A stretch of 47,313 nt of DNA from a virus, in the IMG/VR virus record IMGVR_UViG_3300013132_003142, positions 1 to 47,313 of that record, one strand, 5' to 3'. A program made the translations under genes and the position numbers. How positions within the stretch are numbered: the stretch's first letter is position 1; every line of letters starts with the position of its first letter. The notes under the pieces are model-generated. The model worked only from the letters and a program-made list of their open reading frames with translations. It was not told where the DNA came from and did not search any database. Positions 3,787 through 44,612 of the stretch are shown here, one piece after another.

Positions 3787-4456
3787 AGTCGAAGTTGACC
3801 ATCGGAGTAGTCTGTATTACCATCAGTACGAATGGTGCATAACCATCAACATCTCTGAGGCGCCTTGTTTGCGACACTTGGGGAGTGCTCAATTCGAAAG
3901 TGCTATTCGTAATGCCAGGCACTGGGCCGAAAAAGATGTATGGACAGATAGGTCATGGACTGTGACCAAAGAAACTGCCTTGCGCGAAACTCGTGACGTG
4001 CTGGTCACCGAAACTCATTCATTCAAAATAGTGGTCAGTTTCAACACAATCAGCATATACACCAACCATCGTAAGTTGGCCGATCGACTAGTTCAACTAG
4101 GTAATGACGGTGTACACATGCACCTGGTACGACAAGCAGTGTTGACCCGGCCAGCAGGGGTGGTGCAACTGCAGGAATCACAATATGCTTACAGAACTTA
4201 TCTTCGAGAACGCAAGTACACCAGAGATCAAAGAGACATGTTGGCCAATTTTTTACATTCTCGTCAAGATACCTTGCGTGTGAGCCCAGCATTGGATGAA
4301 TGGGTAAACGGTGCGTTTGTTGGGTATACACGAAATCTCAGTTATTCGAGATCCTACTATTTTGTGGACCATGATCATCCCAACGAAGGCACCATGCTGA
4401 GTTTGGTGATGCCGGGCATTGTAAGAAAGACCATGCCCATTCAAACGACTAAATAA
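3779..4456 (+). CDS. Conserved-looking phage protein of unknown function
   Basis: I do not recognise a family. I prefer a TTG start at 3779 (225 residues) because AAGGAA at 3767-3772 lies 6 nt before it; an in-frame ATG at 3761 has no Shine-Dalgarno site. Either start overlaps the end of the clpA-like gene, which suggests translational coupling. The protein is soluble, rich in aromatic residues, His and Arg, with an N-terminal part like YYHQYEWCITINI and no obvious membrane segment, metal motif or nucleotide-binding loop. It could be a partner of the Clp/DnaJ pair by position only. Confidence 0.65.
   Translation: MYKVEVDHRSSLYYHQYEWCITINISEAPCLRHLGSAQFESAIRNARHWAEKDVWTDRSWTVTKETALRETRDVLVTETHSFKIVVSFNTISIYTNHRKLADRLVQLGNDGVHMHLVRQAVLTRPAGVVQLQESQYAYRTYLRERKYTRDQRDMLANFLHSRQDTLRVSPALDEWVNGAFVGYTRNLSYSRSYYFVDHDHPNEGTMLSLVMPGIVRKTMPIQTTK
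4449..4455 (+). promoter_or_regulatory. Late-promoter motif CTAAATA
   Basis: CTAAATA ends 7 nt before the ATG at 4463 and no Shine-Dalgarno site is present. It matches the core of the T4 late promoter (TATAAATA), and the predicted transcript start falls at or near the ATG. It lies across the end of the preceding gene. Confidence 0.5.
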
Positions 4457-4462
4457 TACACT

Positions 4463-4627
4463 ATGGCTAAAATACACGAAGAAGTAGTTGTGATCAAACT
4501 ATCAAAATTGATCCGAGATACCGATGCTGGTGACGAAATTGCCACCGCTGACATCGTTGCTGCCTTGCAAAGTGTGGCAGAAGAACTTGCTGGTACAGGT
4601 GTTGTTGTAGAAGCGGACAAGGCTTAA
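4463..4627 (+). CDS. Small acidic protein, 54 residues
   Basis: This short frame encodes 54 residues starting MAKIHEEVVVIKL and ending VVVEADKA. It is acidic and probably has an alpha/beta structure with a helix around TADIVAALQSVAEEL. It is preceded by a CTAAATA late motif 7 nt from its ATG and its TAA overlaps the next ATG (TAATG), so it seems to head a transcription unit with the next two small genes. The family is not recognised. Because it leads a run of small beta-rich proteins expressed from a late-type motif, a virion role is plausible but not shown. Confidence 0.65.
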   Translation: MAKIHEEVVVIKLSKLIRDTDAGDEIATADIVAALQSVAEELAGTGVVVEADKA

Positions 4628-4989
4628 TGACCACAAAAACCATTCTTGCTACCACTGTTTATGGCGTGCCCTCGGGCAACTATGACGGCAGCAGTCAAGA
4701 CTGGTCAAGTGATCCTGTCACAGCCGCCAATTATTATCGCGGTCGCGGCGGCGTGCAAACCATTACATTTTCAGTTACTGAATTCGAAGGTGACATGATT
4801 TTGGAAGCCTGCTTGGACGATGATCCTGCTGAAGCCAACTGGTTTGACACATACGTCTACGGTGACGGCAGTACCATTCCGCTAACTGACTATCATCCTG
4901 CCACGGTCACCGGCAATTTTACCTGGATGCGAGTGCGTGTTGAAGCATTTTCAGGTGGCACAATCAATTCAGTCACTATTACCTACTAG
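4627..4989 (+). CDS. Small beta-rich protein, probable virion component
   Basis: The 120-residue product is rich in Thr, Gly, Tyr and Trp and has alternating hydrophobic/polar stretches (for example FSVTEFEGDMILEACL and VRVEAFSGGTINSV), which suggest a beta-sandwich. It has no signal peptide or membrane segment. The start overlaps the stop of the 54-residue protein (TAATG). Compact beta-sandwich proteins in late clusters are often tail-tip, fibre or capsid-decoration proteins, but I recognise no specific family. It ends in TAG and the next gene starts 8 nt downstream. Confidence 0.6.
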   Translation: MTTKTILATTVYGVPSGNYDGSSQDWSSDPVTAANYYRGRGGVQTITFSVTEFEGDMILEACLDDDPAEANWFDTYVYGDGSTIPLTDYHPATVTGNFTWMRVRVEAFSGGTINSVTITY

Positions 4990-4997
4990 AGCATCTC

Positions 4998-5432
4998 ATG
5001 GACAAAGTAAAAATTGCATTTGACATTGTGTCAACATCGGCTGCATGCCCATTCCACATTGAAATTTGGTTGGATCAATCAAAACTGTTGGCACTAGACA
5101 ATGTGGAAGACTGTGTGCATTTTACCTACGAATTAAGCGACGACGATGGCGAGCACGAGTTAAAGATAGTGCTGCAAGGCAAATTGCCCGAGCATACCAA
5201 AATTGACGAGCAAGGCAATATGATCAGCGATTCCACATTGCAAATATCCAATGTTACCATTGATGAATTAGACATTAACAAATTGTTCTTAGAAAAATGC
5301 GTGTACACACACAATTTCAATGACAGTCAACCTGAAATTAGGGACACATTTCATGGCATTGCAGGCTGCAATGGCACAATCAGTTTTGAATTCTCCACAC
5401 CCGTTTATCTGTGGTTGTTGGAAAACATGTGA
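4998..5432 (+). CDS. Small beta-rich protein, possible carbohydrate-binding fold
   Basis: This is a 144-residue acidic protein with strand-rich patterns (MDKVKIAFDIV, CPFHIEIWLDQSKL, DGEHELKIVLQGK) and a closing FEFSTPVYLWLL. The layout resembles small phage proteins with jelly-roll or carbohydrate-binding-like folds, and it is similar in style to the 100-residue protein at 21019 ([22 protein letters not shown]). That is a resemblance of pattern, not proven homology. It follows the beta-rich gene at 4627 by 8 nt and probably shares its transcript. A decoration or receptor-related role is an inference. Confidence 0.55.
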   Translation: MDKVKIAFDIVSTSAACPFHIEIWLDQSKLLALDNVEDCVHFTYELSDDDGEHELKIVLQGKLPEHTKIDEQGNMISDSTLQISNVTIDELDINKLFLEKCVYTHNFNDSQPEIRDTFHGIAGCNGTISFEFSTPVYLWLLENM

Positions 5433-5435
5433 TTG

Positions 5436-5442
5436 CTAAATA
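5436..5442 (+). promoter_or_regulatory. Late-promoter motif CTAAATA
   Basis: CTAAATA ends 6 nt before the ATG at 5449; no Shine-Dalgarno site is present between the motif and the start codon. Confidence 0.55.
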
Positions 5443-5448
5443 CAGTTT

Positions 5449-6183
5449 ATGACAACTGTAGTAATCATGCCCGGCGGGTTTCATCCTTTTCATGCAGGGC
5501 ATGCAGCTTTGTATCAGTCAGCTCGGCGTACATTTCCAGATGCAGATGTATATGTGGCTGCTACCAATGACACATCAACAAGACCTTTTCCATTTCAAAT
5601 AAAAGAAAAACTGGCTCAATTGGCCGGAGTTGACCCAGGTCGATTCATGCAGGTCAAAAGCCCTTTTCAAGCCGCAGAAATAACAGCACCTTACGATCCC
5701 GCCCGTGATCAATTGATATTTGTAAGATCAGAAAAAGACGCAAACAAACCACCACAGGCCGGTGGCGTCAAAAAGAACGGCGAACCATCATATCTGCAGC
5801 CGTTGTTGAGTGCAAAAAAACTAGAACCATTTGCAAAGCATGCTTACATGGCCTATTTGCCCACTGTGGAATTTGGTCCAGGCATGACTTCGGCTACGGA
5901 AATACGTAACGAATGGCCTACGCTAGATGAACAAGGTAAATTGGATCGTGTGATGAGCCTGTATCCCCGAACACAGATCAATCCCCGGTTGGCTGCCACA
6001 GTGGTCCGAATGTTGGACACTGCCATTGGCACCGACGTCTCTGAAAATCAAGGCTGGGCTGCCACTTACGAAGCAGTGGGACTCACTGCTGGCACCGGCG
6101 TCACAGGAGGCATGCATGCCTCATATCAAACACAATACAATCAACCCACCACAGAAGACTATGTGGAAGAATACCGGTCGTAA
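5449..6183 (+). CDS. Cytidylyltransferase-like nucleotidylyltransferase
   Basis: The N-terminus carries the nucleotidylyltransferase signature GGFHPFHAGH (residues 9-18; HxGH type), which binds nucleotide phosphates. A second motif, MTSATEIR, near residue 146 corresponds to the ISSTxxR loop of this superfamily. Members join a nucleotide to a phosphorylated or carboxylated small molecule (NMN, pantetheine phosphate, glycerol phosphate), so the substrate cannot be chosen here. At 244 residues it exceeds the usual core of about 160; the last 70 residues look like a flexible tail (ATYEAVGLTAGTG). It is expressed from a late motif next to virion genes, so the product might be packaged. Cofactor or sugar-nucleotide synthesis is the main alternative. 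Confidence 0.8.
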   Translation: MTTVVIMPGGFHPFHAGHAALYQSARRTFPDADVYVAATNDTSTRPFPFQIKEKLAQLAGVDPGRFMQVKSPFQAAEITAPYDPARDQLIFVRSEKDANKPPQAGGVKKNGEPSYLQPLLSAKKLEPFAKHAYMAYLPTVEFGPGMTSATEIRNEWPTLDEQGKLDRVMSLYPRTQINPRLAATVVRMLDTAIGTDVSENQGWAATYEAVGLTAGTGVTGGMHASYQTQYNQPTTEDYVEEYRS

Positions 6184-6197
6184 AAAATACCACACGC

Positions 6198-6206
6198 TGT
6201 TATAAT
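6198..6206 (+). promoter_or_regulatory. Extended -10 promoter candidate before the 6243 gene
   Basis: TGT followed by TATAAT (6201-6206) forms an extended -10 element, with no convincing -35. A TTTAAATA (6208-6215) overlaps just downstream. The gene also has a CGGAG Shine-Dalgarno site near 6234-6238, so it may use both promoter types. Confidence 0.4.
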
Positions 6207-6242
6207 CTTTAAATACTAACATAATTTTTTAACGGAGAACCC

Positions 6243-7184
6243 ATGTCAGACACACCAATTGATCAGCCTCAAGCTGATGCTACACCTGTCACTGCACCAT
6301 CCAGCGATCCAGCAACCACCAATCAACAAAATGTGCAAGTCAACATTGACTACTTGCGTACCACTAGAGTACACATTTGCATGCCCTGCTACGGAGGACA
6401 GCTGACTGAAGCTTGTTTTATGAGCTTTGTAAAATGGGCCAACCTGTGCCGTCAGCTGAACATTGACTGGACCGTGGAAACCATGACCAACGAGAGTTTG
6501 ATCAGTCGAGCACGTAACACCTTGACTTCCAAGTTTTTGTACACCAAAGAGTCAACACATTTGATGTTTATTGACGCTGACATTGGCTGGGAACCTTGGC
6601 ATTTGCTGGTGTTGTTGGATGCACAAAAAGACGTGATTGGTGGATTGTATCCCATGAAGAGCCTGCCAGTAAAATGGTGTGTGAATGGCATTCCTGGACA
6701 AGCAGAAGATCCCACTTCCAATCTCATCGAAGTCACAAAAACTGGCACAGGTTTCTTGTTGATCAAACGTGATGTGTTTGAAAAACTCAATGCACATCCT
6801 GCTACCAAGCCTTTCAACAACGACATTGGCTTGCCAGCAGAGCTGAACCCTTTCATGAAAACCTACTTTGACACTGCTGTGCGTGAAAATCGCTACTATT
6901 CAGAAGACTGGACTTTCTGTGAAAACTGGCGTGATATTGGTGGTCAAGTGTTCATTGACAAGCGAATCATGCTGAAACACGTGGGCACCTATGTGTTTGA
7001 CTACAACACACACGAGCAACTGTACAAAGATCTCAAAGTGATGTTTGAACCCCAGACTGCCATCACAGGCGAAGTCAATGTGGTGAACAAACCAGCCGAA
7101 GCACATGATCTAGCACAGGCACCGGCTCCAGCAGTGGAACCAGAAGTGTTTGCGTCAAGCGAAGAATCAGCTATCGCTCAGTAA
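6243..7184 (+). CDS. Glycosyltransferase-like protein, GT-A fold
   Basis: Residues 1-35 are a flexible Pro/Ala/Thr-rich leader. From residue 37 (RVHICMPCYGG) the sequence follows a GT-A layout: ESLISRARN around residue 85, then FIDADIGW near residue 111, where the DxD-type motif would bind a metal and nucleotide sugar. A later EDWTFCENW segment fits the acceptor/catalytic region. The last 45 residues are another disordered Ala/Pro tail. Proteins of this kind occur in T4-like phages of marine bacteria, from memory. Sugar donor and acceptor are unknown; capsid or tail glycosylation would suit its place among virion genes. It has its own Shine-Dalgarno site. Confidence 0.7.
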   Translation: MSDTPIDQPQADATPVTAPSSDPATTNQQNVQVNIDYLRTTRVHICMPCYGGQLTEACFMSFVKWANLCRQLNIDWTVETMTNESLISRARNTLTSKFLYTKESTHLMFIDADIGWEPWHLLVLLDAQKDVIGGLYPMKSLPVKWCVNGIPGQAEDPTSNLIEVTKTGTGFLLIKRDVFEKLNAHPATKPFNNDIGLPAELNPFMKTYFDTAVRENRYYSEDWTFCENWRDIGGQVFIDKRIMLKHVGTYVFDYNTHEQLYKDLKVMFEPQTAITGEVNVVNKPAEAHDLAQAPAPAVEPEVFASSEESAIAQ

Positions 7185-7186
7185 CG

Positions 7187-7193
7187 GTAAATA
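7187..7193 (+). promoter_or_regulatory. Late-promoter motif GTAAATA
   Basis: GTAAATA ends 6 nt before the ATG at 7200 with no Shine-Dalgarno site. The AAATACAG context is the same as before the 5449 gene. Confidence 0.5.
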
Positions 7194-7199
7194 CAGCTT

Positions 7200-10100
7200 A
7201 TGAACATTCATGAGCTGGCTACTTACAATCTTGATGATGCTGTAAAGTTTCATCAGCGACTCAATCCTGTACTTTGGGCAAGAGACGAACATCTCTTGCC
7301 TGAAGTGCGCAACAAGTTGTTAAAAATAGCAGCAGACTTCCAAGAATTCCTGGGAGTAGAGGATCTCAAAGTAAAAGACATCACTGTGTCTGGATCCAAT
7401 GCTGCTTATTCTTACACCAAACAATCCGACATAGATCTACACCTGGTGGTCGAAATGCCCAACGATCCGGTGTATCAAGAGTTGTTTGCTGCCAAAAAAT
7501 ATCAATACAACACCGAACATGACATCACCATAGGTGGTGCTGACGTTGAACTGTATGTGCAACCAGATGATCAGCCACATCACAGTCAAGGCATTTATTC
7601 AATCAAGAACTCAGACTGGGTAAAAGTACCACAACGCAAACGCAGTCAAATAGATGACACCTGTGTGTTGGCCAAGGTAGATGATCTGGCCACCAGAATC
7701 AAATCTGCCATTGCCAGCCAGGATAGATCAGTCATGGATTCGTTGTGGAAAAAAATCAAAATCATGCGCCAGAGCGGTTTGGAAAATCATGGCGAGTTTG
7801 GCTGTGAGAATGTTGCATTCAAACTGCTGCGAAACAATGGCAGCATTGGCGCATTGAAGTCAGCTATAACAGCAGCACAAGATCGTGAACTGAGTTTGCC
7901 GCCTAAAAAACGTGTGCGCTATGGATTTTCAGAAGACGTGACTTCCACCCCTGACGGAGTCAGTGCCAGCACCAACATGTTTTTGAACGAAACACCTGTG
8001 AGCAATGTTGTGCAGTCTTTTGTGCAAGATGTAGTGCAACGCCTGGGCATTGAAAACATGCCTGAAGTAGTTTTGCACGATGATCCTGACTGGAGCAAAC
8101 AAAACAACAGCTTTGGTCAATACAATCCTGACACACGAACTTTGCATGTGAGTTTGGTTGATCGCCATCTACTGGACATATTGCGAACAGTGGCACATGA
8201 GCTCACTCATTGCCGTCAAAACGAGCTGGATACATTGCCAGATCATGCTGGAGAAACTGGCAGTCGTTGGGAAAATCAAGCCAATGCTCAAGCAGGCATA
8301 CTCATGCGTGACTTTGCAGATGCCAATCCTGAGTATTTCAACGAGTCATACACTCAAGCAAAAAGTTTGCAGTCATCCATGAAGACCTTTCGTGCCAAAG
8401 TACGCATCAAAGATCGATACGGTAGTCCGGCTATTGAAGCACAGGTAGTGGCCAGAAACCATGACATGGCCAGACAAATGTTGAGAGCTCAGTACGGTCC
8501 TGACAGTGTGATCAGCACAGTGACCGAGCTTAAAGAAAATGCATCGGGCTATATTCCCAAGAACCGACGAGAAGCAGCCATGCCTCGGTATGCCATGGCT
8601 CTTTCAGTGGATATTAAACCTGGCGAAGTTGGCAGACAAGCCAACAAACTTGCTCTGAAAACTGGACGCAATGGTGAGCCTGGTTTGCTGCAACCCGATG
8701 CACAGAATCTCTTGCGTGAGTTCAGCGAATTTGTGACAGAACAAGATCAGTTGTTTGAAATCACCATGAGTCCTTCAAGCCTGAAGAAGTTGAGTGCGCA
8801 GACTGGTGCCTTGGCCGGCATGGAATTTGAAATGATTGTGCCCGGTACCGGGGATGATGACGGCGATCTAGAACCTGACTACGACTTTGATGAACGTTGT
8901 CGCAGCATTCAGGATGCCCGTGATTTTTTCTATGACGGTGACTACAACGGTCGTCGAGATATTCAACGCATGAGTGATCGCATGCAGAATGACTACGCAG
9001 AATGGTTGTATGAAAGACTTGACACCGACTTTACCAACAACAGTGAAAATCTCATTAGTGAGTGGATCTCAAACAATGTGGACGAATCAAAGTGGAATCC
9101 TGACGATCTTGAAGGCGAGGCTCGTCAGGAAGCCCTGGCGGAATTTGTCGCCAATGTTGATGCTCGTCCCAGCAGTGATTATTATCAACAGGCCCTGGAC
9201 GAGTATCGTGAAGAAAATCAGGGCAGTTATGACGAAAGCGACTGGTTGGATGCCGAAGATCTAGACCTCATGAGTGGCGTTGAAAACGCCTACAATATAA
9301 CCTGGCCACATTGGCGCAGCACAGGTGGCGGTGAAGTCAGCACTGAGGAAGTGGCCGACAGTTTCAGCAACGCAGTGGGCCGTCCTTGCCGAGCCAGCAG
9401 CAGTTATCACTCAAGCCGAGTACCACGACCCAGCAAAACCAATGTGAGTTATATTGTGGAACCTGACAGCAGCCTGGAACCAGATGATGCCAATGACTCT
9501 GGCCTGGAGTTTGTGAGCCCACCCCTGCCCATTGAAGAACTGCTCAGTGATTTGAACAAAGTTAAAAAGTGGGCTGACAAGACAGGTTGCTACACCAATG
9601 ATTCAACTGGCCTGCACATCAATGTGTCAGTACCTGGTTGGTCTGGCGGCTCAGAAGGCCTGGACTATGTGAAACTGGCAGTGTTGTTAGGTGACGAATA
9701 TGTGCTGGATGCATTTGGTCGCGCAGGCAACACCTATGCCAAGTCGGCCATGGGCAAGATTCGTTCAATAATCAAACAAAATCCTGCCAAGGCAGAAGAA
9801 ATGCTGGAACGCATGAAGTCTGGCATGGATCAACTGGCCAGCCGGGCCATACACTCAGGTGCCACAGAAAAATACACGTCAATCAACAACAAAAATGGCT
9901 ACATTGAATTCCGCAGCCCAGGTGGCGACTGGTTGGATGCCAACTTTGATCAAATTGAAAACACCTTGCGACGTTTCACAGTGGCTCTAAGTGCTGCTGT
10001 TGATCCCCAGGCCTACAGACAAGAGTACCTAAAGAAACTGTATAAACTTCTGGATGTCAAGAGTGAAAAAGATTCCTTGAGTTATTTTGCACGATATGCC

Positions 10101-12161
10101 GCAGGCGAATTGCCCCGAGCCGCGCTGAAGAGTTTTGTGCGTCAGGCCCGACTGGAACGTGATATACAACGTGGCAAAACAGGCGAGGAAGAATTCAAAT
10201 GGGAAGTTGGCAGACCAGGTTATGGTGCTAGTATCATTGTCCGAGCCAAAACCAAAGAACAAGCCATTGACCGAGCCGTGCAACCAGATGGATACCCCGA
10301 CTGGGCCAGTGCCAGAAGTCAACTCACAGCCCGGCCCATAGGACCAGTCGACACCGCCCCAGTCAGAGCCACTGCAGGTGAACCCCAGGCCGTTGGACAA
10401 CAAGGCAACTGGGGCATTTGGATGACTGGTGAGAATCGTTTCAGCCGAGCACCAGGCCAACCGGACCCTTCTGTATATCGTAGATTTGCCAGTCGTGAGG
10501 CGGCTGAACAATACATTGAACAACAACGTCAAACGTACCCCGGTATGCGTACCGACATTGAAGTGCGTGAGATTGAACCCAGTGCCGCAGCACAGGCCAT
10601 GGGACAACAAGGTGCAGCCATGCTGGGCGATCGACCCAGCAACCCCGATGGCAACTATGTGATCACGCCCGAAGGAGATCGCACCAGCGTTTACTATCGA
10701 TTCCAAGCAGTGGACATTGATGATGCCAACACAGTGTTGCGAGCCTGGCGACAGCAGTATCCCAATCAAGTGTGGTTGGCTCAACGCGACGACAGCAGAA
10801 CGTTGGGACAACCGCCTGTGCCAGGATCTACCCTGGACCTACAACGTCAACGACTTGCGGCCACACCTGCATATGGTTTTAGAGATTTATTTTCAACCAC
10901 CCCAGATCAACAGCAAGGCGGCAGACCTCATGATCCCACAGGACGCTATGCCATTGTGGCACGCAGCGACACAGCAGTGCATGGACGCACAGGCGGTCCA
11001 GCCCCCTACTACTATTTCAGATTCAACATGCAGAATCTTGAAGACCAAGGCCACGGACGATATGTTCTACAGGCCTGGGCTGCCAGAAATTCAGTGAACA
11101 CTGATGATTACATGGTGGTTGATACCACTCAATATGCAGATGATGCTGCTCAAGGTGGCACAGTGGATGTGGCCACAGACCGACCAGCACAGCGTACAGG
11201 CGGTGAGTTTACTGGTGAGTGGCGGGTCCTAGTCAACGGCCAAGAAGTGTATAGATTCAGTGGTGCAGGCAACAGTCAAGCCGATGCTAACAGAGTTGCC
11301 GCTGATTGGTTGCGTCGCAATGGAATGGGGGTGAGTGGCGAAGGCTTTGAAGTGTATCCGGTGATGGCAGAAAGTCTGCAAGAGGCCAAAGGCAACCGTA
11401 GAAAGTTTGCTGATGGCTATTTGGTGTTTAGTGATCATTTGTATGACAGACTACGCGATCACAGCATCAGTCAAGACGCCGTTGAGCAATTGTTAAGAAA
11501 ACTGGAAGTGCGCAGATCTATTGATTTAATTCGAATGCCATACATTGACTTTGTAGTCAAAACTCCAGATTTAGCATTGGCCATTGCTAAAACACGTGAC
11601 CAAAATGACAACACAGCGTTTGTTGTCAGCACAGTGCGTCAAAATTTGCGCTCAGGACCTGACCAAGATGTAGTTTATTTAGAAGATATGCCACAGCCCA
11701 GTCACGGTCCAGGACAGATCAAAGATCTAAATGAACCCTTGGGGCCAGAGTCACCACCCCAAATGCCCGCGGGCACCATCAAAGTAGATGTGTCAGACAT
11801 GTATGACTGGTATAAATTGGGACAAAAGATATCAGACCTGGACAGCATCCGGCCTGGAGAATTGGGTTCAGGACCACCATCAACTGTGTTTGCATTTGGC
11901 TCAGAAGACCTAAAGAACATGTACAGTCATGCGCTCACACGACTGGGATTGAAGACACATGATTTGGATGAGCCTGGCGAAGAGGACATTGACGAAAACT
12001 TTGCAGACGGCCGGAATCCACAAGACAAGGGAGATAGTGCTAGGCATGGTATACCAAAGAAGGCCTCATTAGCAAAGTTAGACAAAATAGGACATGGGTC
12101 AGGCCGTAAAGCACAATTAGCCAGATGGCAGGCGAATATGAGACGTGGTCGTGCTAAATAA
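7200..12161 (+). CDS. Giant multidomain protein: nucleotidyltransferase, HELTH zincin, amidoligase-like
   Basis: This 1653-residue protein is the longest in the window. Domains seen: (1) a nucleotidyltransferase-like part with SGSN (64-67), DIDLH (77-81) and a third acidic site in GGADVELY; (2) a zinc-metallopeptidase site HELTH (333-337); (3) an amidoligase-like region starting GMEFE (540-544), with GLHINV (804-809) and IEFRSPGG (902-909), typical of carboxylate-amine ligases; (4) several short alpha/beta modules between about nt 10390 and 11370; (5) a compact part near residue 1400 (VFSDHLYDRL); (6) a basic C-terminal tag with DSARHG (1612-1617) and RWQANMRRG. Enzyme activities are predicted from motifs only. 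A late motif, no signal peptide and no membrane segment suggest a packaged or virion-associated multi-enzyme that could modify peptidoglycan or host targets. A homing endonuclease follows. Confidence 0.75.
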   Translation: MNIHELATYNLDDAVKFHQRLNPVLWARDEHLLPEVRNKLLKIAADFQEFLGVEDLKVKDITVSGSNAAYSYTKQSDIDLHLVVEMPNDPVYQELFAAKKYQYNTEHDITIGGADVELYVQPDDQPHHSQGIYSIKNSDWVKVPQRKRSQIDDTCVLAKVDDLATRIKSAIASQDRSVMDSLWKKIKIMRQSGLENHGEFGCENVAFKLLRNNGSIGALKSAITAAQDRELSLPPKKRVRYGFSEDVTSTPDGVSASTNMFLNETPVSNVVQSFVQDVVQRLGIENMPEVVLHDDPDWSKQNNSFGQYNPDTRTLHVSLVDRHLLDILRTVAHELTHCRQNELDTLPDHAGETGSRWENQANAQAGILMRDFADANPEYFNESYTQAKSLQSSMKTFRAKVRIKDRYGSPAIEAQVVARNHDMARQMLRAQYGPDSVISTVTELKENASGYIPKNRREAAMPRYAMALSVDIKPGEVGRQANKLALKTGRNGEPGLLQPDAQNLLREFSEFVTEQDQLFEITMSPSSLKKLSAQTGALAGMEFEMIVPGTGDDDGDLEPDYDFDERCRSIQDARDFFYDGDYNGRRDIQRMSDRMQNDYAEWLYERLDTDFTNNSENLISEWISNNVDESKWNPDDLEGEARQEALAEFVANVDARPSSDYYQQALDEYREENQGSYDESDWLDAEDLDLMSGVENAYNITWPHWRSTGGGEVSTEEVADSFSNAVGRPCRASSSYHSSRVPRPSKTNVSYIVEPDSSLEPDDANDSGLEFVSPPLPIEELLSDLNKVKKWADKTGCYTNDSTGLHINVSVPGWSGGSEGLDYVKLAVLLGDEYVLDAFGRAGNTYAKSAMGKIRSIIKQNPAKAEEMLERMKSGMDQLASRAIHSGATEKYTSINNKNGYIEFRSPGGDWLDANFDQIENTLRRFTVALSAAVDPQAYRQEYLKKLYKLLDVKSEKDSLSYFARYAAGELPRAALKSFVRQARLERDIQRGKTGEEEFKWEVGRPGYGASIIVRAKTKEQAIDRAVQPDGYPDWASARSQLTARPIGPVDTAPVRATAGEPQAVGQQGNWGIWMTGENRFSRAPGQPDPSVYRRFASREAAEQYIEQQRQTYPGMRTDIEVREIEPSAAAQAMGQQGAAMLGDRPSNPDGNYVITPEGDRTSVYYRFQAVDIDDANTVLRAWRQQYPNQVWLAQRDDSRTLGQPPVPGSTLDLQRQRLAATPAYGFRDLFSTTPDQQQGGRPHDPTGRYAIVARSDTAVHGRTGGPAPYYYFRFNMQNLEDQGHGRYVLQAWAARNSVNTDDYMVVDTTQYADDAAQGGTVDVATDRPAQRTGGEFTGEWRVLVNGQEVYRFSGAGNSQADANRVAADWLRRNGMGVSGEGFEVYPVMAESLQEAKGNRRKFADGYLVFSDHLYDRLRDHSISQDAVEQLLRKLEVRRSIDLIRMPYIDFVVKTPDLALAIAKTRDQNDNTAFVVSTVRQNLRSGPDQDVVYLEDMPQPSHGPGQIKDLNEPLGPESPPQMPAGTIKVDVSDMYDWYKLGQKISDLDSIRPGELGSGPPSTVFAFGSEDLKNMYSHALTRLGLKTHDLDEPGEEDIDENFADGRNPQDKGDSARHGIPKKASLAKLDKIGHGSGRKAQLARWQANMRRGRAK
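12154..12160 (+). promoter_or_regulatory. Late-promoter motif CTAAATA before the homing endonuclease
   Basis: CTAAATA ends 8 nt before the ATG at 12169 and overlaps the stop of the giant gene; no Shine-Dalgarno site is seen. Confidence 0.45.
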
Positions 12162-12168
12162 TGTTATC

Positions 12169-12765
12169 ATGGCACACGTTTATATCATCACAAACAAAAT
12201 AAACAATAAACAATACGTCGGAGTGACCAATAACTCACTTCAAGAAAGATGGAAAAGTCATCTGTATGACAATAAGATCATTAGCAAGGCTATCAAAAAA
12301 TATGGCAAAGAAAACTTTTCCATAGAAGCAATACATGAATGTGATACAATGGATGAAGCGTACATTCTTGAACCAAAATTTATTATTGAACATAATACCA
12401 AATACCCAAATGGATACAATGTATCGTCGGGAGGCAAAGGATCGCAAGTTGGTAAACGCAAGCCCACTCCAGATCATGTCAAGCAAAAAATAAGTGAATC
12501 AATCAAGAAAAATCATTACTGGAACAACTTGTCTGAAGAACAAAAAGAAAAATGCAGAGAAAGTTGGCGGGCAAACAATCAGTCTCGTATAGGGCAAAAA
12601 AGAAGTTCATATAACAATGGATTATTCAAAAAAACTGTTTGGATCAACAACGGCGAACAGAGAAAACGAGTTCCAGAATCTGATATAAATGACTGGATAT
12701 CAAATGGGTGGATACGCGGGCACATGAACGGTGTAGTCAACATGAAATTTGGACATAAGAAATGA
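12169..12765 (+). CDS. GIY-YIG homing endonuclease
   Basis: The N-terminus (MAHVYIITN...YVGVT, then ERWKSHL) is a GIY-YIG nuclease domain, which cuts DNA using an arginine and a glutamate on this fold. Residues about 100-130 (HVKQKISESIKK) match a NUMOD3-type DNA-binding helix. The C-terminus has KTVWINNGE...SNGWIRG, a motif I associate with homing-endonuclease tails. Length is 198 residues. The ATG at 12169 is chosen because the nuclease domain begins there. The gene looks richer in A/T than its neighbours, as expected for a free-standing mobile gene. It sits between two virion-type genes and its stop overlaps the next ATG (ATGA). No intron is evident, so it may home into a neighbouring gene's allele. 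Confidence 0.88.
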   Translation: MAHVYIITNKINNKQYVGVTNNSLQERWKSHLYDNKIISKAIKKYGKENFSIEAIHECDTMDEAYILEPKFIIEHNTKYPNGYNVSSGGKGSQVGKRKPTPDHVKQKISESIKKNHYWNNLSEEQKEKCRESWRANNQSRIGQKRSSYNNGLFKKTVWINNGEQRKRVPESDINDWISNGWIRGHMNGVVNMKFGHKK

Positions 12766-13199: not shown

Positions 13200-13778
13200 G
13201 TGAGACACCACGAAATCACTCAAGAAGCATCGCCCAACACCTGGGCAGGCAGTTTTACTCCTGACCTGGTGGCCAGCAAGACCTGGTTGACCACACAGTT
13301 GAAAAAACAACTGGCCGGTGCGTCAGCTGGCGACGTCTATGTGCTGGGCAGTTGGTGGGGCAACACAGGAGTGTTTATCCAGCAGGCCGGCATTGAGTTT
13401 GATCGACTGATCATGGTAGAACGGCGCAGATACTTGTTGGCCAGCACCAAGATGCTGTTGAACGACCTGTGGCAACAAGGACGCTTGGTATTGTGGCATC
13501 AGGATGCTGCCAACATCCAGTATCCCACCAATCGAACCATCACAGTGATCAACACCAGCAGCAATGAAATGCCCAGAACTTGGATCACTCGAGTGCCCCG
13601 GGGCACACTCACAGTGATACAGTCAAGGGACAATGTCAAGGATGTCAAGGTCATCACTGACACAGCAGCACAGTTTTATGCCAAGTTTCCCTTGAAAACC
13701 ACAGTGTACTGGGGCGAACGCCGACTGCGAGATCCAGAAACACGCTACCGACGCTGGATGAAGATTGGCTATAAATAA
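13200..13778 (+). CDS. Class I methyltransferase-like protein (degenerate Rossmann fold)
   Basis: The gene encodes 192 residues from a GTG start. The N-terminus MRHHEITQEA resembles the capsid-targeting-like leaders of neighbouring genes. From residue 45, DVYVLGSWWGNTGVF looks like motif I of a SAM-binding fold, and LIMVERRRYLLASTKMLL like motif II with its acidic residue (E). ITVINTSSNEM could be motif IV, lacking a classic (D/N)PPY. The C-terminus is basic. I therefore call it methyltransferase-like with uncertain activity. No strong Shine-Dalgarno site is visible. Its stop lies beside a TATAAATA element that serves the next gene. Confidence 0.5.
   Translation: MRHHEITQEASPNTWAGSFTPDLVASKTWLTTQLKKQLAGASAGDVYVLGSWWGNTGVFIQQAGIEFDRLIMVERRRYLLASTKMLLNDLWQQGRLVLWHQDAANIQYPTNRTITVINTSSNEMPRTWITRVPRGTLTVIQSRDNVKDVKVITDTAAQFYAKFPLKTTVYWGERRLRDPETRYRRWMKIGYK
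13770..13777 (+). promoter_or_regulatory. Perfect T4-type late-promoter core TATAAATA
   Basis: TATAAATA is an exact match to the T4 late core and ends 7 nt before the ATG at 13785, with no Shine-Dalgarno site. It overlaps the end of the previous gene, including its TAA. Confidence 0.6.
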
Positions 13779-13784
13779 ACAACT

Positions 13785-14138
13785 ATGACGTACAAAGAAA
13801 TTCTTGAAGCCTGCTGGACTGGTTATCGCCAAGCAGGCATGAAAAACAAAGGCGGGCGCCAGGTGCCCAATTGCGTGCCTGTGCGCGAAACCGAAATAGA
13901 AGAAAATCTTCGTGACTGGTTCAAACAAAAGTGGGTGCGTTTTGGTCCTGATGGAAAAATCCGTGGCGACTGTGCTAGAGGAAGTGAAAAGGAAGGCAAG
14001 CCCAAGTGTTTGCCCCAGGCCCGGGCGCACGCACTGGGTCGAAAAGGTCGTGCCAGTGCAGCGGCTAGAAAACGGCGTGAAGATCCCAACCCCAACCGTA
14101 CAGGAAAGGCCATCAACGTGGCAACTAAAAAGAAATGA
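13785..14138 (+). CDS. Small basic virion-type protein
   Basis: The protein has 117 residues. MTYKEILEA at the N-terminus resembles a capsid-targeting leader with an ILE|A site. The body has three cysteines (NCVP, GDCARG, KCLPQ) and a WVRFGPDGKIRGDC pattern, then a strongly basic tail (LGRKGRAS, RKRREDPN, AINVATKKK). I have seen near-identical C-terminal patterns in marine T4-like phages, function unknown. High Lys/Arg content suits a DNA-contacting head interior protein. It is preceded by a perfect TATAAATA and its last 4 nt overlap the next ATG. Confidence 0.65.
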   Translation: MTYKEILEACWTGYRQAGMKNKGGRQVPNCVPVRETEIEENLRDWFKQKWVRFGPDGKIRGDCARGSEKEGKPKCLPQARAHALGRKGRASAAARKRREDPNPNRTGKAINVATKKK

Positions 14139-20981: not shown

Positions 20982-20985
20982 GGGA

Positions 20986-21013
20986 TATTTATATACACAG
21001 TTTTGACTAAATA
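20986..21013. promoter_or_regulatory. Divergent pair of late-promoter motifs in a 37-bp gap
   Basis: The minus-strand TATAAATA (20993-20986) is 4 nt from the ATG of the radical SAM gene; the plus-strand CTAAATA (21007-21013) is 5 nt from the ATG at 21019. Neither gene has a Shine-Dalgarno site. Both transcription units therefore seem to start in this gap, back to back. Confidence 0.6.
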
Positions 21014-21018
21014 TATCT

Positions 21019-28922: not shown

Positions 28923-29645
28923 ATGAGAGATTATCTTAAAGACTTGGTAGAACACACACACGATCTTGGCTGCATTGACTTGATCAAAATCACTGGAGAC
29001 GACAAAGGCACAGCTATTGTGGGTGTGGCAGAAGACTTGTCAGTGGTTTTAGAAGGTGAGTTTAAAAACCCACACGTAGATTTTATTGGCACATTTGGAA
29101 TGCCCAATTTGAACAAACTAAAAATCTTGTTGAACTTGCAAGAGTACCGAGAGAATGCCAAACTCAAACTGACCAAAAAAGCCACAGGCGCACCTGATGG
29201 TATTGAGTTTGAAAATGCCACTGGAGACTTCCGCAACACCTATCGTTTCATGGCAGCAGAAATTGTGAACGACAAACTCAAAACCCCCAAGTTCAAAGGT
29301 GTGACCTGGCACATTGAATTCGAACCCACTGTGGCTGCTATTCAGCGACTGCGCATGCAAGCACAGGCCAATGCCGAAGAGCCCAACTTTCAAGCCCGGA
29401 CCGAAAATGGCGACTTGAAGTTTTTCTTTGGTGATCATTCAACACACGCTGGTAACTTTGTGTTCCACTCAGGTGTGAATGGTCAACTCAAACGTGCTTG
29501 GTCCTGGCCGGCTCAACAATTCATGGCCATCATGGCATTGACTGGGGACAAAACTATTCGCATCTCAGATGATGGTGCTGCCAAGATCACCGTGGATTCG
29601 GGCGTGGCTGTTTACAACTACATTTTACCAGCACAAAGCAAGTGA
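28923..29645 (+). CDS. 45: Sliding clamp, T4 gp45-like
   Basis: The protein has 240 residues, close to T4 gp45 (228). The layout is that of a two-domain clamp: repeated strand-turn patterns, IGTFGMPNLNKLKILLNL in the region corresponding to the first domain's helix-strand, and a C-terminus KTIRISDDGAAKITVDSGVA ending in YNYILPAQSK, which I recognise from T4-like marine phages. As a trimer around DNA it would give processivity to the polymerase and, in T4, also activate late transcription with gp33 and gp55. It has its own promoter and strong Shine-Dalgarno site, and overlaps the DpdA-like gene at GTGA. Confidence 0.75.
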   Translation: MRDYLKDLVEHTHDLGCIDLIKITGDDKGTAIVGVAEDLSVVLEGEFKNPHVDFIGTFGMPNLNKLKILLNLQEYRENAKLKLTKKATGAPDGIEFENATGDFRNTYRFMAAEIVNDKLKTPKFKGVTWHIEFEPTVAAIQRLRMQAQANAEEPNFQARTENGDLKFFFGDHSTHAGNFVFHSGVNGQLKRAWSWPAQQFMAIMALTGDKTIRISDDGAAKITVDSGVAVYNYILPAQSK

Positions 29646-36817: not shown

Positions 36818-36843
36818 CTGTCACGATCTAAATAGTGTACAAT
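36814..36843 (+). promoter_or_regulatory. Sigma70-type promoter for folE, with late motif in the spacer
   Basis: TTGACT (36814-36819) and TACAAT (36838-36843) are 18 bp apart. The spacer contains CTAAATA (36828-36834). CGGAG precedes the ATG at 36861. Dual early/late use is possible. Confidence 0.6.
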
Positions 36844-40685: not shown

Positions 40686-40694
40686 TTTTTCGCA

Positions 40695-41167: not shown

Positions 41168-41176
41168 TGCTAAAAT
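41168..41176 (+). promoter_or_regulatory. Extended -10 promoter for queD
   Basis: TGC-TAAAAT forms an extended -10 (41168-41176). A weak -35, TATACA, lies 17 bp upstream at 41148-41153. ATAGGAG before the ATG at 41195 matches the leader of the clamp gene. A 6-bp inverted repeat TACCGG...CCGGTA (41123-41149) overlaps the -35. Confidence 0.4.
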
Positions 41177-41194
41177 TAACATAGGAGAAAAAGC

Positions 41195-41728
41195 ATGTCA
41201 CAAGATCAAAACCAAGTAGGTCACCGCTGGATGTCAGCAAGACAGTACAAGTACACATCAACCAAAGAGTATCACGATGCGTTTCCATGCGCATATCGTC
41301 AATGGCGAGCAGACAGTCATTGCAATTTGATTCATGGCTATAGTTTCTCGATGAAGTTCTACTTTGGTACAGATAACTTGGATGTACGCAACTGGGCTGC
41401 CGACTATGGTGGTCTCAAAGAACTCAAGTCGGTGTTGGAAAGTCAATTTGACCACACATTGTTGGTAGCCGAAGATGATCCTGAACTAGAGTTCTACAAG
41501 GAAATGGAACGCCGTAGTCTTGCCAAACTAACTATACTACCCAAACTGGGTTGTGAAGGACTGGCTGATCAGCTGTACAAATATGTGAACGGTGTTTATA
41601 TTCCTGACATGTGGGGGCAAGGTGAAGCAGCTCGACTGTGGTGCTATCGCGTGGAAGTGCGTGAAACCCAGAGCAACATGGCTTTTAGAGAAGGCCATCG
41701 CGAATGGAATGAGGATTTATTTGCATAA
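41195..41728 (+). CDS. queD: QueD: 6-carboxy-5,6,7,8-tetrahydropterin synthase
   Basis: QueD converts dihydroneopterin triphosphate, the FolE product, into 6-carboxytetrahydropterin. The protein has 177 residues against about 120 in E. coli, with an N-terminal extension. The catalytic Cys is C32 (AFPCAY). H42 (SHCN), H47 (LIHGYS) and a later FDHTLL fit the zinc and catalytic histidines, and RVEVRET gives the closing Glu. YGGLKELKSVLESQFDHT is a family hallmark. It has an AGGAG site and its own promoter, in the same deazaguanine set as folE and queE. Confidence 0.85.
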   Translation: MSQDQNQVGHRWMSARQYKYTSTKEYHDAFPCAYRQWRADSHCNLIHGYSFSMKFYFGTDNLDVRNWAADYGGLKELKSVLESQFDHTLLVAEDDPELEFYKEMERRSLAKLTILPKLGCEGLADQLYKYVNGVYIPDMWGQGEAARLWCYRVEVRETQSNMAFREGHREWNEDLFA

Positions 41729-41737
41729 GGATCAAGT

Positions 41738-42598
41738 ATGAGTATGGTAACTTACGATCAATCACATCGTTACGATATTGCTATGTTGTTGGCCACACGA
41801 GGCCGAACTGAAAGTCTGGACCGCAGTGTTCGCAGCCTAATAGAGTTGGCTGACCATCCTGAACGTGTGCAGTTGATGTTTGCGTTTGATCGCGATGATG
41901 TGATTGGCAAAGATTATTTTAAAACGAAACTTCAACCCTGGATGGATCAACAAAAACTGGCCTACAAGGCCATGATATTTGATCGCCAGGGATATCACAG
42001 ACTACACATCTACAACAACAAGTTGGCAGAAAATACCGATTCACGTTGGCTGATGATTTGGAACGATGATGCCTACATGGAAACTCAAGGTTGGGATACC
42101 ACCATCATGAGTTACGAAGGACAATTTCGATTGCTGGCTTTTCATACTCACATGGATCATCCCTACAGCATCTTTCCTATCATTCCAAGAAAGTGGTTTG
42201 ATTTGTTGGGCTATATCTCACCACACAGTGTGCAAGATGGCTGGCTAAGCCAACAGGCATACATGCTGGATATCTGGCAGCGTATACCTGTGAATGTGTT
42301 ACATGACCGTGCAGATCTAACCGGCAACAACAATGATACCACGTTTCGTGAACGTGCATCGCTGGAAGGTCGTCCCATGGACGAAAATGACTTTCACAGT
42401 AGGTCACAGATAGCATTGCGACAGCAAGATTGCTATAAATTGGCAGCTTATATGTTGAATGATTTGCAAATGGATCTGAGTTTTTTCAACAATATCTGGC
42501 TGGGCGCACAAGATCCCTGGGAAAAATTAGCTAAAAATGATGTCAACAAGCAAATGGTTCAGTTTTCTAATCCGCATGTGCATTTTGGAAACAAGTAA
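41738..42598 (+). CDS. GT-A-like glycosyltransferase family protein
   Basis: The protein has 286 residues. MLLATRGRTESLDRSVRSLI is the GT2-type start, and MIWNDDAYMETQGWD is the metal-binding acidic motif. Later HDRADLTGNNNDTTFRE is unusual. Typical phage GT-A domains have this length. It has an AAGGATC Shine-Dalgarno-type site and precedes the B12-binding radical SAM gene by a GTAAATA late motif. Sugar and acceptor are unknown. Confidence 0.6.
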   Translation: MSMVTYDQSHRYDIAMLLATRGRTESLDRSVRSLIELADHPERVQLMFAFDRDDVIGKDYFKTKLQPWMDQQKLAYKAMIFDRQGYHRLHIYNNKLAENTDSRWLMIWNDDAYMETQGWDTTIMSYEGQFRLLAFHTHMDHPYSIFPIIPRKWFDLLGYISPHSVQDGWLSQQAYMLDIWQRIPVNVLHDRADLTGNNNDTTFRERASLEGRPMDENDFHSRSQIALRQQDCYKLAAYMLNDLQMDLSFFNNIWLGAQDPWEKLAKNDVNKQMVQFSNPHVHFGNK

Positions 42599-42601
42599 AT
42601 A
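42595..42601 (+). promoter_or_regulatory. Late-promoter motif GTAAATA before the B12-radical SAM gene
   Basis: GTAAATA ends 4 nt before the ATG at 42606; no Shine-Dalgarno site. It overlaps the previous stop (TAA). Confidence 0.55.
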
Positions 42602-42605
42602 AGAC

Positions 42606-44612
42606 ATGACATGTAACATTGCTTGGGTACAACCAAATTTTCAACAAGGACCAAAAGAGTTCAACGCCTACTATCTGCCTTATTCTGCAGGCGTGATATG
42701 GAGTTACAGCCTGGCAGACCCGGCCATACGTGAACGCTTCAAAGTTACTGAATTTTTGTGGCGCAGAGAAGCCATCGAAGAAACAGCTGAAAGATTGTGT
42801 AAAAATGACATGGTGGCATTCAGCACCTATGTTTGGAATCATCGCTACAACTATGAACTTGCTCGGCAGATCAAAGCACGAAATCCCAACACAGTGATTT
42901 TGTTTGGTGGACCTGAGCCTGCTATCACAGACGTCAACATTTTCCGGGACAATCCTTTCATGGATTTGATCATTTGTTACGAAGGTGAAATCACATTCAA
43001 ACGTGTGTTGGAAGTGTTTGACACCAAGAACTGGGAAAGTGTAGCCGGCCTGCTGATCAACAGAAATGGCGAAGCTGTAAAAACTGAAGAAGCCAAGCGT
43101 ATTGAAAGTCTTGAAGAAGTTGAAAGTCCATACTTGTCTGGTATATTTGATCAACTCATAGCTGATCATCCTGAGGTAACCTGGCAAGGCACCCTGGAAA
43201 CCAATCGTGGCTGCCCGTATCAATGTACCTTTTGTGACTGGGGCAGTCTGACCTACAACAAAGTCAAGAAGTTCAAACTGGAACGTGTGTTTGCTGAACT
43301 GGAATGGATGGCTCAGCACAACTTTGATTGGATCAGTATAACTGATGCCAATTTTGGCATGTACCCCGAACGTGACGGCATGATTGCAGACAAGATCATT
43401 GAGTGTCAAGAAAAATATGGATCACCAAGAACATTCTCAGTGGCCTGGGCCAAGAATCAAAAGAAAGAAGTCATAGACATTGTGAAGAAACTGTTGGATG
43501 CCAAGGGATTCAATCAAGGACTCACACTCAGCGTACAGAGTTTGGACTTGGATGTGCTGGAAAACATTCGTCGCAAGAACATGGAAATGAACAAGCTCAA
43601 CGAAGTATTTGAGCTGTGCGACCAACGCAACATTCCTGCATACACAGAATTGATCCTGGGCCTGCCTGGTGAGACCCTGGAAACATGGAAAAAAAACTTC
43701 TATGCCTTGTACGAATTAAATCAGCACACCGGCATCACAACATTCCAAGCACAGTTGTTGGAAAATGCCGAAATGAACCTGTTACAGAAGAAACTGTTCA
43801 AGATCACCAGCCAACCTGTAACAGACTACTTTGCTGGCAGCTACAGTGTGGAACACATTGAAGAAAGCATTGATGTCATCACAGGCACCAAAGACATGCC
43901 TACTCCAGTGATGCTGGATGCACAGATATTTGCCTGGTTCCAGACCACGGTTCACATCAACGGCTTTGCTACTTTGGTCGCACGTTTTATCAACAAGTAC
44001 CTGAACATCAGTTACAACAACTACTACGAAGAATTGTTTGCACACTTCATGACCAATGAATGGGTAAAGAAAGAAGAATCTGAAGCCCGTATGTACTTCA
44101 ACAATTGGATGATGACCGGACGCATTAACCATCCCAAGATTGGTGTGGAAATACACGGCTGGAACATCATTCACAGAACCAGCATGAACATGCACCAGGA
44201 AAATCAAGTGGAACAGTTGTATGATCATCTGGAACAGTTTCTAGAACGCTACAACTTGCCCCCAGATCTGTTGGCCAGCTTGATGAAACTGCAAAGAAGT
44301 TACTACATCAAGTATGATGACAGAAATCAGTACCCCATGAACTTGCAGTTGGAATACAACATCTGGGAATATTTGAGCTTCAGTAAGCCTCTAGAAAAAA
44401 TTCCCACTGTGTATCGATTGGATTTTCCTGAAGACAAGACCATGAGTTTTAATAGATTTTTGGAATTGTTTTACTTTGCAAGACGCAGAAACTTTGGCAA
44501 GGCCACGGTGGATCGCGTCAGTGGCGGAGACTCCAAAGGCGCTCGTCGAGGCGCAGGTGCTGCCAAAGCACAAGGCAGTTTTTCAGTGAAGAAAAAACAA
44601 CTAGTGGCGTGA
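42606..44612 (+). CDS. B12-binding radical SAM enzyme
   Basis: The protein has 668 residues. The N-terminal ~150 residues look like a cobalamin-binding fold (VILFGGPEPAI, DLIICYEGEITF). The radical SAM core has CPYQCTFCDWG (C203, C207, C210), followed by ISITDANFGMYPERD and LGLPGETLE. The C-terminus (residues 480-668) is helical and ends in a basic Ala/Gly tail. Cobalamin-dependent members typically methylate unactivated carbons or do other radical chemistry on sugars, lipids or peptides. It overlaps the SGNH-like gene that follows, suggesting a shared substrate. Substrate unknown. Confidence 0.85.
   Translation: MTCNIAWVQPNFQQGPKEFNAYYLPYSAGVIWSYSLADPAIRERFKVTEFLWRREAIEETAERLCKNDMVAFSTYVWNHRYNYELARQIKARNPNTVILFGGPEPAITDVNIFRDNPFMDLIICYEGEITFKRVLEVFDTKNWESVAGLLINRNGEAVKTEEAKRIESLEEVESPYLSGIFDQLIADHPEVTWQGTLETNRGCPYQCTFCDWGSLTYNKVKKFKLERVFAELEWMAQHNFDWISITDANFGMYPERDGMIADKIIECQEKYGSPRTFSVAWAKNQKKEVIDIVKKLLDAKGFNQGLTLSVQSLDLDVLENIRRKNMEMNKLNEVFELCDQRNIPAYTELILGLPGETLETWKKNFYALYELNQHTGITTFQAQLLENAEMNLLQKKLFKITSQPVTDYFAGSYSVEHIEESIDVITGTKDMPTPVMLDAQIFAWFQTTVHINGFATLVARFINKYLNISYNNYYEELFAHFMTNEWVKKEESEARMYFNNWMMTGRINHPKIGVEIHGWNIIHRTSMNMHQENQVEQLYDHLEQFLERYNLPPDLLASLMKLQRSYYIKYDDRNQYPMNLQLEYNIWEYLSFSKPLEKIPTVYRLDFPEDKTMSFNRFLELFYFARRRNFGKATVDRVSGGDSKGARRGAGAAKAQGSFSVKKKQLVA

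Follow-up and report, generated by a model that had tools for sequence, protein, structure and literature searches.

Within a 47,313-base virus fragment from a jumbo T4-like phage (IMG/VR record IMGVR_UViG_3300013132_003142, positions 1 to 47,313; "the window" below is this whole stretch), several genes carry the hexamer TAAATA, the core of the T4 late promoter, only a few bases before their ATG, which raises the question whether their transcripts possess a leader at all. The original prediction held that at least eight such genes lack a Shine-Dalgarno (SD) site and are transcribed from T4-type late promoters whose mRNAs begin at or next to the AUG. On the evidence set out below, it is very probable that these sites are gp55-type late promoters and that their transcripts begin at the AUG or three bases before it. 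That TAAATA is read by a gp55 homologue, that the genes are late, the exact +1 and the leaderless mode of translation are all what we infer from comparing sequences.

TAAATA boxes close to start codons in the window

The gap, as used here, is the number of nucleotides between TAAATA and the ATG; a gap of 4-8 defines the near class (L) and one of 14-32 the leadered class (S). All eight predicted pairs are located exactly as described. On the plus strand, the cores lie at 4450..4455 (gap 7 to ATG 4463, reading ...ACT-ATG), 5437..5442 (gap 6 to ATG 5449), 7188..7193 (gap 6 to ATG 7200), 12155..12160 (gap 8 to ATG 12169, a core that overlaps the end of the preceding gene), 13772..13777 (gap 7 to ATG 13785, again reading ...ACT-ATG, with the box being TATAAATA here), 21008..21013 (gap 5 to ATG 21019) and 42596..42601 (gap 4 to ATG 42606). 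The eighth, on the minus strand at 20986..20991, precedes ATG 20981 with a gap of 4 and is divergent from the core at 21008..21013, such that the 37-bp spacer between these two ATGs (20982-21018) holds two opposed late boxes. The orthologous pair in one relative (G005) likewise has a 37-bp spacer with two boxes.

These positions are not random. TAAATA stands at a gap of 4-8 in 8 of the 55 window starts, whereas shuffling the 14 nt upstream of each start gave 0.31 on average, and none of 20,000 shuffles reached 8. In the 16 nt upstream of window starts, no other hexamer is as frequent (8 occurrences; the runner-up has 4). None of the eight near starts has an SD pairing of -4 kcal or better, as had been claimed. 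This absence is not independent evidence, since there is no room for an SD site when the motif is only 4-8 nt away from the ATG; it is the spacing that constitutes the evidence.

The near placement in relatives and in other phages

The scan of TAAATA-to-ATG distances and SD strength that had been proposed as a check was run on the window and its relatives, and it yielded both a near peak and an SD contrast. Searching IMG/VR with the protein encoded at 5449 returned 276 relatives, 80 of which were kept, the longest contig measuring 364 kb. For the comparison genomes, genes were called with a simple custom open reading frame (ORF) caller and were not taken from annotation. With duplicates removed, the 80 loci comprise 1.46 Mb; measured from TAAATA to the first ATG downstream that opens an ORF of at least 60 amino acids, the distances peak at gaps 4-8 (27, 49, 38, 19 and 13 sites), while the remaining gaps within 0-15 hold 0-7 sites each and gaps 16-60 average 4.2 per position.

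Five relatives are nearly full-size (G005, G009, G011, G012 and G017; 300-364 kb, 1,832 called genes), with pairwise median protein identities of 65-72%. Pooled, they have TAAATA at a gap of 4-8 in 157 genes (mode 5), at 9-15 in 7 and at 16-26 in 134, and the two placements are nearly equal in size (157 near, 163 at 14-32 nt). Per genome, this amounts to 28-34 genes at gap 4-8, 0-1 at 9-13 and 27-37 at 14-32, as compared to means for 14 permuted hexamers of 2.6-4.2, 1.6-4.3 and 8.6-10.5, respectively. The near-empty zone at 9-15 would follow if a late mRNA had only two options, to be practically leaderless or to have a leader that can accommodate an SD site. A hexamer scan of 2,651 upstream regions from the five relatives (up to three ATGs per gene) gave TAAATA as the top non-SD word at gap 4-8 (157 against a background of 31). 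The A/T-rich sixth relative, G019, has a near peak too (16, 19, 2, 2 and 1 sites; sum 40, control mean 12.5), and its highest control, at 35, is the overlapping word ATAAAT.

Could the pattern be a product of chance in A/T-rich intergenic DNA? TAAATA is mildly over-represented in the window overall (20 occurrences on both strands versus 13.5 expected, standard deviation 3.7; 4 of 100 shuffles reach 20), which would lend this idea some credit. However, the shuffled upstream regions argue against it, as does the presence of the peak in six fully fetched relatives and not in T4, Syn9, Aeh1 or Atu_ph07, and both the permuted hexamers and the hexamer scan contradict A/T-richness as the cause, so that we give chance practically no weight.

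The absence of the peak from T4, Syn9, Aeh1 and Atu_ph07 (5, 1, 1 and 6 near sites versus controls of 7.6, 2.9, 2.2 and 11.9) also led us to reject the near placement as a general T4-like trait. For KVP40, S-PM2, RaK2, phiM12, Cr30 and Phosso, raw pattern counts were 10, 11, 27, 1, 2 and 8 and those of the reversed pattern 9, 12, 85, 2, 11 and 8, the control thus never being exceeded by more than one. Melnitz (4 near sites, control 3.1) and Mosig (10, control 7.4; 6 of them at gap 5) show a weak signal, and the Pelagibacter phage HTVC008M has 12 TAAATA sites at exactly gap 5.

Conservation of placement gene by gene

Reciprocal-best-hit pairs among the five relatives mostly agree in placement: 189 pairs are L in both members, 170 are S in both and 14 combine L with S, whereas shuffled labels give 16.9, 17.8 and 35.3; the further classes LN and NS hold 56 and 61 pairs. 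The sequence flanking the box upstream was compared over 30 nt in 213 LL pairs: identity per column is 35-54%, except for the two columns next to the box, where it reaches 0.59 and 0.71.

For the window genes themselves, orthologues were counted in 260 IMG/VR loci (L001-L080, L303-L482). Identical 30-nt upstreams were counted once, and cases were dropped if the alignment started after residue 8, if fewer than 40 nt separated the gene from the locus end, or if there was no in-frame ATG within 8 codons. The motif is at gap 4-8 in 197 of 262 distinct upstreams versus 3 of 193 for six unflagged genes, in a sample where four of the eight gene sets were fetched with the gene itself and some contigs are nearly identical to the window; a seventh control, the S-class gene at 6243, has no near site in 4 upstreams and one at gap 13. 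By gene, the fractions are 40/52 for 4463, 45/63 for 5449, 44/55 for 7200, 4/5 for 12169, 10/24 for 13785, 1/1 for 20981, 12/15 for 21019 and 41/47 for 42606. In the five jumbo relatives, 4463 is L with gap 7 throughout, 5449 and 7200 are L in all five, and 20981 is L in three of the five grouped relatives.

The exceptions differ from gene to gene. Upstream of 4463, 11 of the 52 sequences have the box at gap 20-25 and one has none; among the 55 upstreams of 7200, four have it at gap 9-10, five at 21-25 and two not at all. For 5449, 17 of the 18 misses have TAA or TGA touching the ATG or one base away (judged by eye, in any reading frame), which suggests that the promoter may have been lost here in favour of coupling to the upstream gene. 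All six misses of 42606 carry TAAGTA at gap 4. This word resembles a variant late box in that the relatives, too, show a peak for it, at gap 5. When six of the genes were gone over again, with duplicates removed differently and counts therefore slightly different, an SD site was found in 14 of 19 S-type orthologues versus 1 of 196 L orthologues, along with 4 orthologues at gap 9-13 and 45 without the motif.

Geometry of the box and the predicted start point

Where would transcription from these boxes begin? T4 late boxes occupy -13 to -6, according to the part of PMC1524935 that deals with them. With this geometry, +1 is the sixth base after the box, so that a gap of 5, which is the modal gap of the near class and equals the T4 box-to-start distance, places +1 on the A of the ATG. 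Base frequencies around the ATG, weighted by gene group, point the same way: a pyrimidine (Y) stands at -1 in 94% of 31 gap-5 groups, 84% of 15 gap-6 groups, 86% of 18 gap-7 groups and 83% of 6 gap-8 groups, as compared to 64% in the S class (78 groups) and 51% in the 507 groups that lack the motif. The predicted +1 of the S class is an A in 55% of its 78 groups, more than at any other of the 14 positions that follow the box, and Y-A steps are most frequent at positions 5 and 6 (0.34 and 0.29). The TAAATA core is common to both classes, with similar flanks. Thus, the claim of T4-type late promoters that start the mRNA at or next to the AUG is strongly supported by the gap peak at 5, the near-empty zone, the pyrimidine at -1 and the conservation of placement.

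The claim holds less strictly at the wider gaps. Before the ATG, gap-7 groups (18) favour A (75%), C (67%) and T (55%), and 67% of the six gap-8 groups have A at -3. Such sites look like promoters of a 3-nt leader (ACU-AUG) with a start 5-6 bases after the box, and would thus not be strictly leaderless. One may therefore ask whether all near-site transcripts carry a leader of 1-4 nt and the ribosome simply reads a very short 5′ end. The gap-7 and gap-8 bases fit this, since a start on an A 5-6 nt after the box is also what the leadered class displays. It is at odds with the modal gap-5 sites, which have the Y-A step exactly at the ATG, and with the gap-4 sites, where the A of the ATG is already the fifth base after the box and no space is left for a leader. 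We consider a short leader at every near site unlikely, though it is the alternative that deserves the most attention.

We favor a mechanism in which a late promoter with a TAAATA core and no -35 element would set the start of RNA polymerase on the A of the ATG at gaps 4-6, and three nucleotides before it (5′-ACU-AUG) at gaps 7-8, such that translation would proceed without SD pairing through recognition of the 5′-terminal AUG. Other late promoters that share this core would stand 14-32 nt upstream and give rise to leaders with an SD site, the placement for each gene being conserved within the freshwater jumbo-phage clade.

Translation signals in the two classes

SD pairing of -4 kcal or better is found in 4% of the 157 L genes and in 77% of the 163 S genes, with 38% of the 1,488 genes without the motif and 13-18% of shuffled sequences, depending on the genome, as points of comparison. 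The presence of SD sites in the S class is not forced by spacing. Start codons differ as well: in the called frame, near sites are followed by ATG in 134 cases, GTG in 3 and TTG in 3, as compared to 136, 14 and 13 after sites at gap 16-26. As far as sequence allows such a diagnosis, the near genes therefore appear to have the makings of leaderless genes, namely a -10 element at its own initiation distance, no SD and an AUG start.

This diagnosis depends on the start codon being the right one, and some starts are uncertain in principle; ATG 12169, for instance, is internal to a GTG-started ORF (12145-12765). If the annotated ATGs were wrong, a leader would be made and translation would begin downstream at an SD-preceded start. 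Yet among the 165 L genes (window included), none of the 52 with an in-frame ATG within the next 30 codons has an SD site there, as compared to 22% of 675 genes without the motif, which renders misplaced starts a highly improbable explanation.

TAAATA might also be no promoter at all, and serve instead as a translation signal, either as an A/U-rich site for ribosomal protein S1 or through its TAA in a stop-restart arrangement. Indeed, the TAA of the motif is the stop codon of the upstream gene in 26 of 165 near sites, and a stop overlaps the motif in 14 more. On the other hand, 66 of the 165 have no same-strand stop nearby, the upstream neighbor is divergent in 28% of 156, and the same motif with similar flanks is found upstream of SD leaders. 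Furthermore, orthologues of 4463 have it either at gap 4-8 or at gap 20-25, and permuted A/T hexamers show no peak, except for words overlapping TAAATA. A signal for translation alone is hence very unlikely.

Functions by placement

Groups with four or more L members number 20 and those with four or more S members 17, and profile matches were sought for 10 of each. The L groups comprise the portal (phrog_213, E value (E) 8.7e-110), a small baseplate wedge protein (gp25-like by our reading), three virion structural proteins (one a weak match, E 9e-7), a radical SAM protein, a heptose-adenylyltransferase-like protein, one unknown family and two without a match. The S groups are tail sheath, tail tube, a large baseplate wedge protein (gp6-like by our reading), tail fibre, neck adaptor, a fibre-connector-like protein, two virion structural proteins and two without a match. 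The portal is L in all four grouped relatives, as compared to gaps of 28, 19 and 27 in T4, Aeh1 and Atu_ph07. With sheath and tube having SD leaders and portal and small wedge being predicted leaderless, placement may follow copy number. Groups matching the T4 replication genes 43, nrdA, nrdB, uvsX, 41 and 44 have no TAAATA nearby. Neither do those matching the late genes 17, 21, 23 and 4, which means that a box of its own is not present at every late gene.

In the window, the near boxes precede a gene for a conserved 54-amino-acid protein (4463..4627, +), a cytidylyltransferase-like gene (5449..6183, +; PF01467, E 3.2e-4), a gene for 1653 amino acids with an amidoligase-like part (7200..12161, +; PF12224, E 2.7e-6) and a weak nucleotidyltransferase-like part (PF01909, E 0.0037, under the family cut-off), a GIY-YIG homing-endonuclease-like gene (12169..12765, +; phrog_314, E 1.8e-33; phrog_5123 GIY-YIG, E 2.8e-10), a conserved phage gene of 117 amino acids (13785..14138, +; phrog_727, unknown function, E 8.1e-21) and a gene with B12-binding and radical SAM domains (42606..44612, +; PF04055, PF02310). 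As an aside, the homing-endonuclease-like gene seems to bring along its own late box, which is located inside the end of the preceding gene (12155-12765).

Promoter type and sigma70-like boxes

The original prediction regarded a split by promoter type as its central point, with late promoters serving leaderless genes and sigma70-type promoters serving genes with a strong SD site. This does not stand, and we rejected a strict split: the 163 leadered TAAATA genes, 77% of them with an SD site, place the late core in both arrangements, and TATAAT is found at a leaderless distance as well. Two further TAAATA sites in the window precede SD-bearing genes, one at 6210..6215 (+; gap 27 to ATG 6243, with S gaps of 23-26 in all five relatives) and one at 36829..36834 (+; gap 26 to ATG 36861). 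The latter belongs to folE, which had been listed among the SD genes of the sigma70 group.

TATAAT peaks at gap 6 in the relatives (25 sites versus a mean of 4.85 per position at 15-54), as does TATACT (11 versus 1.65). A -35-like hexamer (at least 4 of 6 matches to TTGACA at a spacing of 15-19) accompanies TATAAT in 36 of 38 sites at gap 5-7 and in 117 of 166 far sites in the five relatives, whereas for TAAATA the numbers are 31 of 109 near sites (gap 5-7) and 54 of 207 far ones. The TAAATA sites thus appear to do without a -35 element, as a T4-type late promoter requires. The sigma70 -10 element ends at -7, so that gap 6 is the sigma70 leaderless distance, one more than for the late box, and the TATAAT gap-6 genes of the relatives are probably leaderless genes of sigma70 type. 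In the A/T-rich G019, only 5 of 17 TATAAT sites at gap 5-7 have a -35-like hexamer, which speaks against the sigma70 reading there. No TATAAT peak at gap 6 is seen in T4 or Aeh1, and gaps 0-14 in the window are free of TATAAT. In Syn9, pooling four -10 variants gives 9 sites at gap 6, and the sigma70 leaderless spacing may thus not be confined to the freshwater jumbo clade.

Late transcription and translation machinery

A T4-type late system requires gp55, and a look for its homologues had been proposed. Of the 27 records searched (25 of them from the 80 contigs), 13 contain a member of the gp55 family (phrog_12791): the six relatives that reach 299 kb or more, five further contigs, Atu_ph07 and T4. 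The homologues (L086-L096) have 297-306 amino acids as compared to 185 in T4 gp55 and align with the T4 core; a T4-like C-terminus is not evident in the aligned proteins. The search for gp33 (phrog_254) turned out differently: it was found in T4, HTVC008M and Syn9, not in Atu_ph07 and in none of the six relatives, though a short diverged protein could be missed.

The window itself encodes a sliding clamp with the gp45/PCNA fold (28923..29645, +), a candidate late-transcription activator. Its sequence gave no significant match in the PDB. The best AlphaFold model has a mean predicted local distance difference test (pLDDT) score of 80.5 (the other four models, 64.5 or less), and its top Foldseek matches are PCNA (E 8.4e-11, probability 1.00). 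By its modeled fold, this protein would provide the gp45-type clamp of a T4-type late system, and together with gp55 in the relatives it adds to the case for mRNAs that begin at or next to the AUG.

On the side of translation, ribosomal protein bS21 is encoded in all six relatives of at least 299 kb as well as in HTVC008M, Atu_ph07 and Phosso (records L097-L104, L265 and others); the remaining 8 reference phages tested gave no match for it. Initiation factor IF3 was found only in Atu_ph07, Phosso and RaK2 (3 of 17 tested, Mosig and Melnitz not being among them), such that the first two carry both proteins and RaK2 has IF3 alone. The pattern is a lead only, because the records are not independent, six of them coming from one clade. 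A pattern search of genome contigs aimed at assigning a host via the phage bS21 gave 120 stretches, none of which was confirmed.

Several points weigh against gp55-type promoters at a leaderless distance. The absence of SD sites in the L class is forced by the spacing. Permuted controls would account for about 9 far matches per genome, as compared to the 27-37 seen. The gap-4 sites show no preference for a pyrimidine at -1 (54% of 26 groups), and at gaps 4, 7 and 8 the start would have to move by one or two bases, unless a 3-nt leader is made. The placement is less well conserved for 13785 and 5449, with 14 of 24 and 18 of 63 upstreams, respectively, having no motif, and the four 7200 orthologues at gap 9-10 run contrary to the near-empty zone. 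The TA at -13/-12 of the T4 box, which would complete TATAAATA, is not conserved (base preceding the core in 165 L sites: A.34, C.21, G.27, T.18); the box is thus not a canonical T4 box but a variant, as in Aeh1. Lastly, gp33 is missing from the relatives' matches, and the gp55 evidence comes from these relatives, the window being a 47-kb fragment.

Relation to known systems

The T4 late system shares with the phages studied here the TAAATA core, the lack of a -35 element and, by prediction, the start 5 nt after the box, along with gp55 (in the relatives) and the clamp fold (in the window). It differs from the relatives in the conserved TA at -13/-12 and in gp33, which was not found in them, and T4, Aeh1, Syn9 and Atu_ph07 all differ in that the near placement is not enriched and TAAATA is mostly located further upstream of ATGs. 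The Aeh1 late box is a diverged CTAAATA at -12 to -6, as given in the relevant part of PMC1524935, and it matches several window sites. However, Aeh1 has 0 near and 22 far sites, with an SD site in 91% of the latter.

A likeness in what would be leaderless late genes links the relatives to the Thermus phage phiYS40, which we take not to be T4-like. Most of its middle and late transcripts lack leaders, and it is reported to raise the expression of initiation factor IF2 and to lower that of IF3; the passage in question mentions no gp55-type late box (PMC3594737). Phage transcripts have been called often leaderless, at least in the passage of PMC5312081 that touches on them. HTVC008M shares the gap-5 sites and encodes gp33 and bS21, but has a 147-kb genome and a median protein identity of 30-36% to the five relatives. 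In the literature covered by our search, most subscription journals lying outside it, neither the near placement in HTVC008M nor gp55-type late promoters at a leaderless spacing in general were described. With leaderless phage mRNAs already known, what appears to be new is a clade-wide, gene-specific leaderless spacing in a T4-type late system.

Going further, it is conceivable, if rather doubtful, that the freshwater jumbo clade, which is uncultivated, runs two translation programmes, in which gp55-type and host-sigma promoters each stand at their own distance to the AUG and phage bS21 retunes host ribosomes. Portal and small wedge would, in this tentative scheme, form a conserved leaderless set, and sheath, tube, large wedge and fibres an SD set; just as speculatively, bS21, with no phage IF3 detectable, might allow host ribosomes to serve both.

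If the leaderless placement is true, T4-like late transcription would be coupled promoter by promoter to SD-independent translation, and the clade would offer a natural test set for the 5′ ends that bacterial ribosomes accept, as well as a possible clue to the role of phage-encoded bS21. Where relatives place the box of one gene differently, that gene allows the two modes to be compared for their cost. There is also a practical side, as gene callers may overlook SD-less starts in jumbo phages.

Further features of the window

The window also encodes a T4-type DNA polymerase (phrog_262, E 1.6e-197), which places the jumbo phages Phosso (51% identity) and Atu_ph07 (48%) nearest within the phage collection. 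A ClpA-like ATP-dependent protease matches phrog_4871, and FolE, QueD and QueE are among the further products. Just before the ATG of a dnaJ-like gene (690), there is a hairpin of 12 bp with one G-U pair (654-685; -17.6 kcal, z -5.9). Its 3′ arm enters a T stretch, which renders it terminator-like, and contains AGGA, the putative SD site of the dnaJ-like gene.

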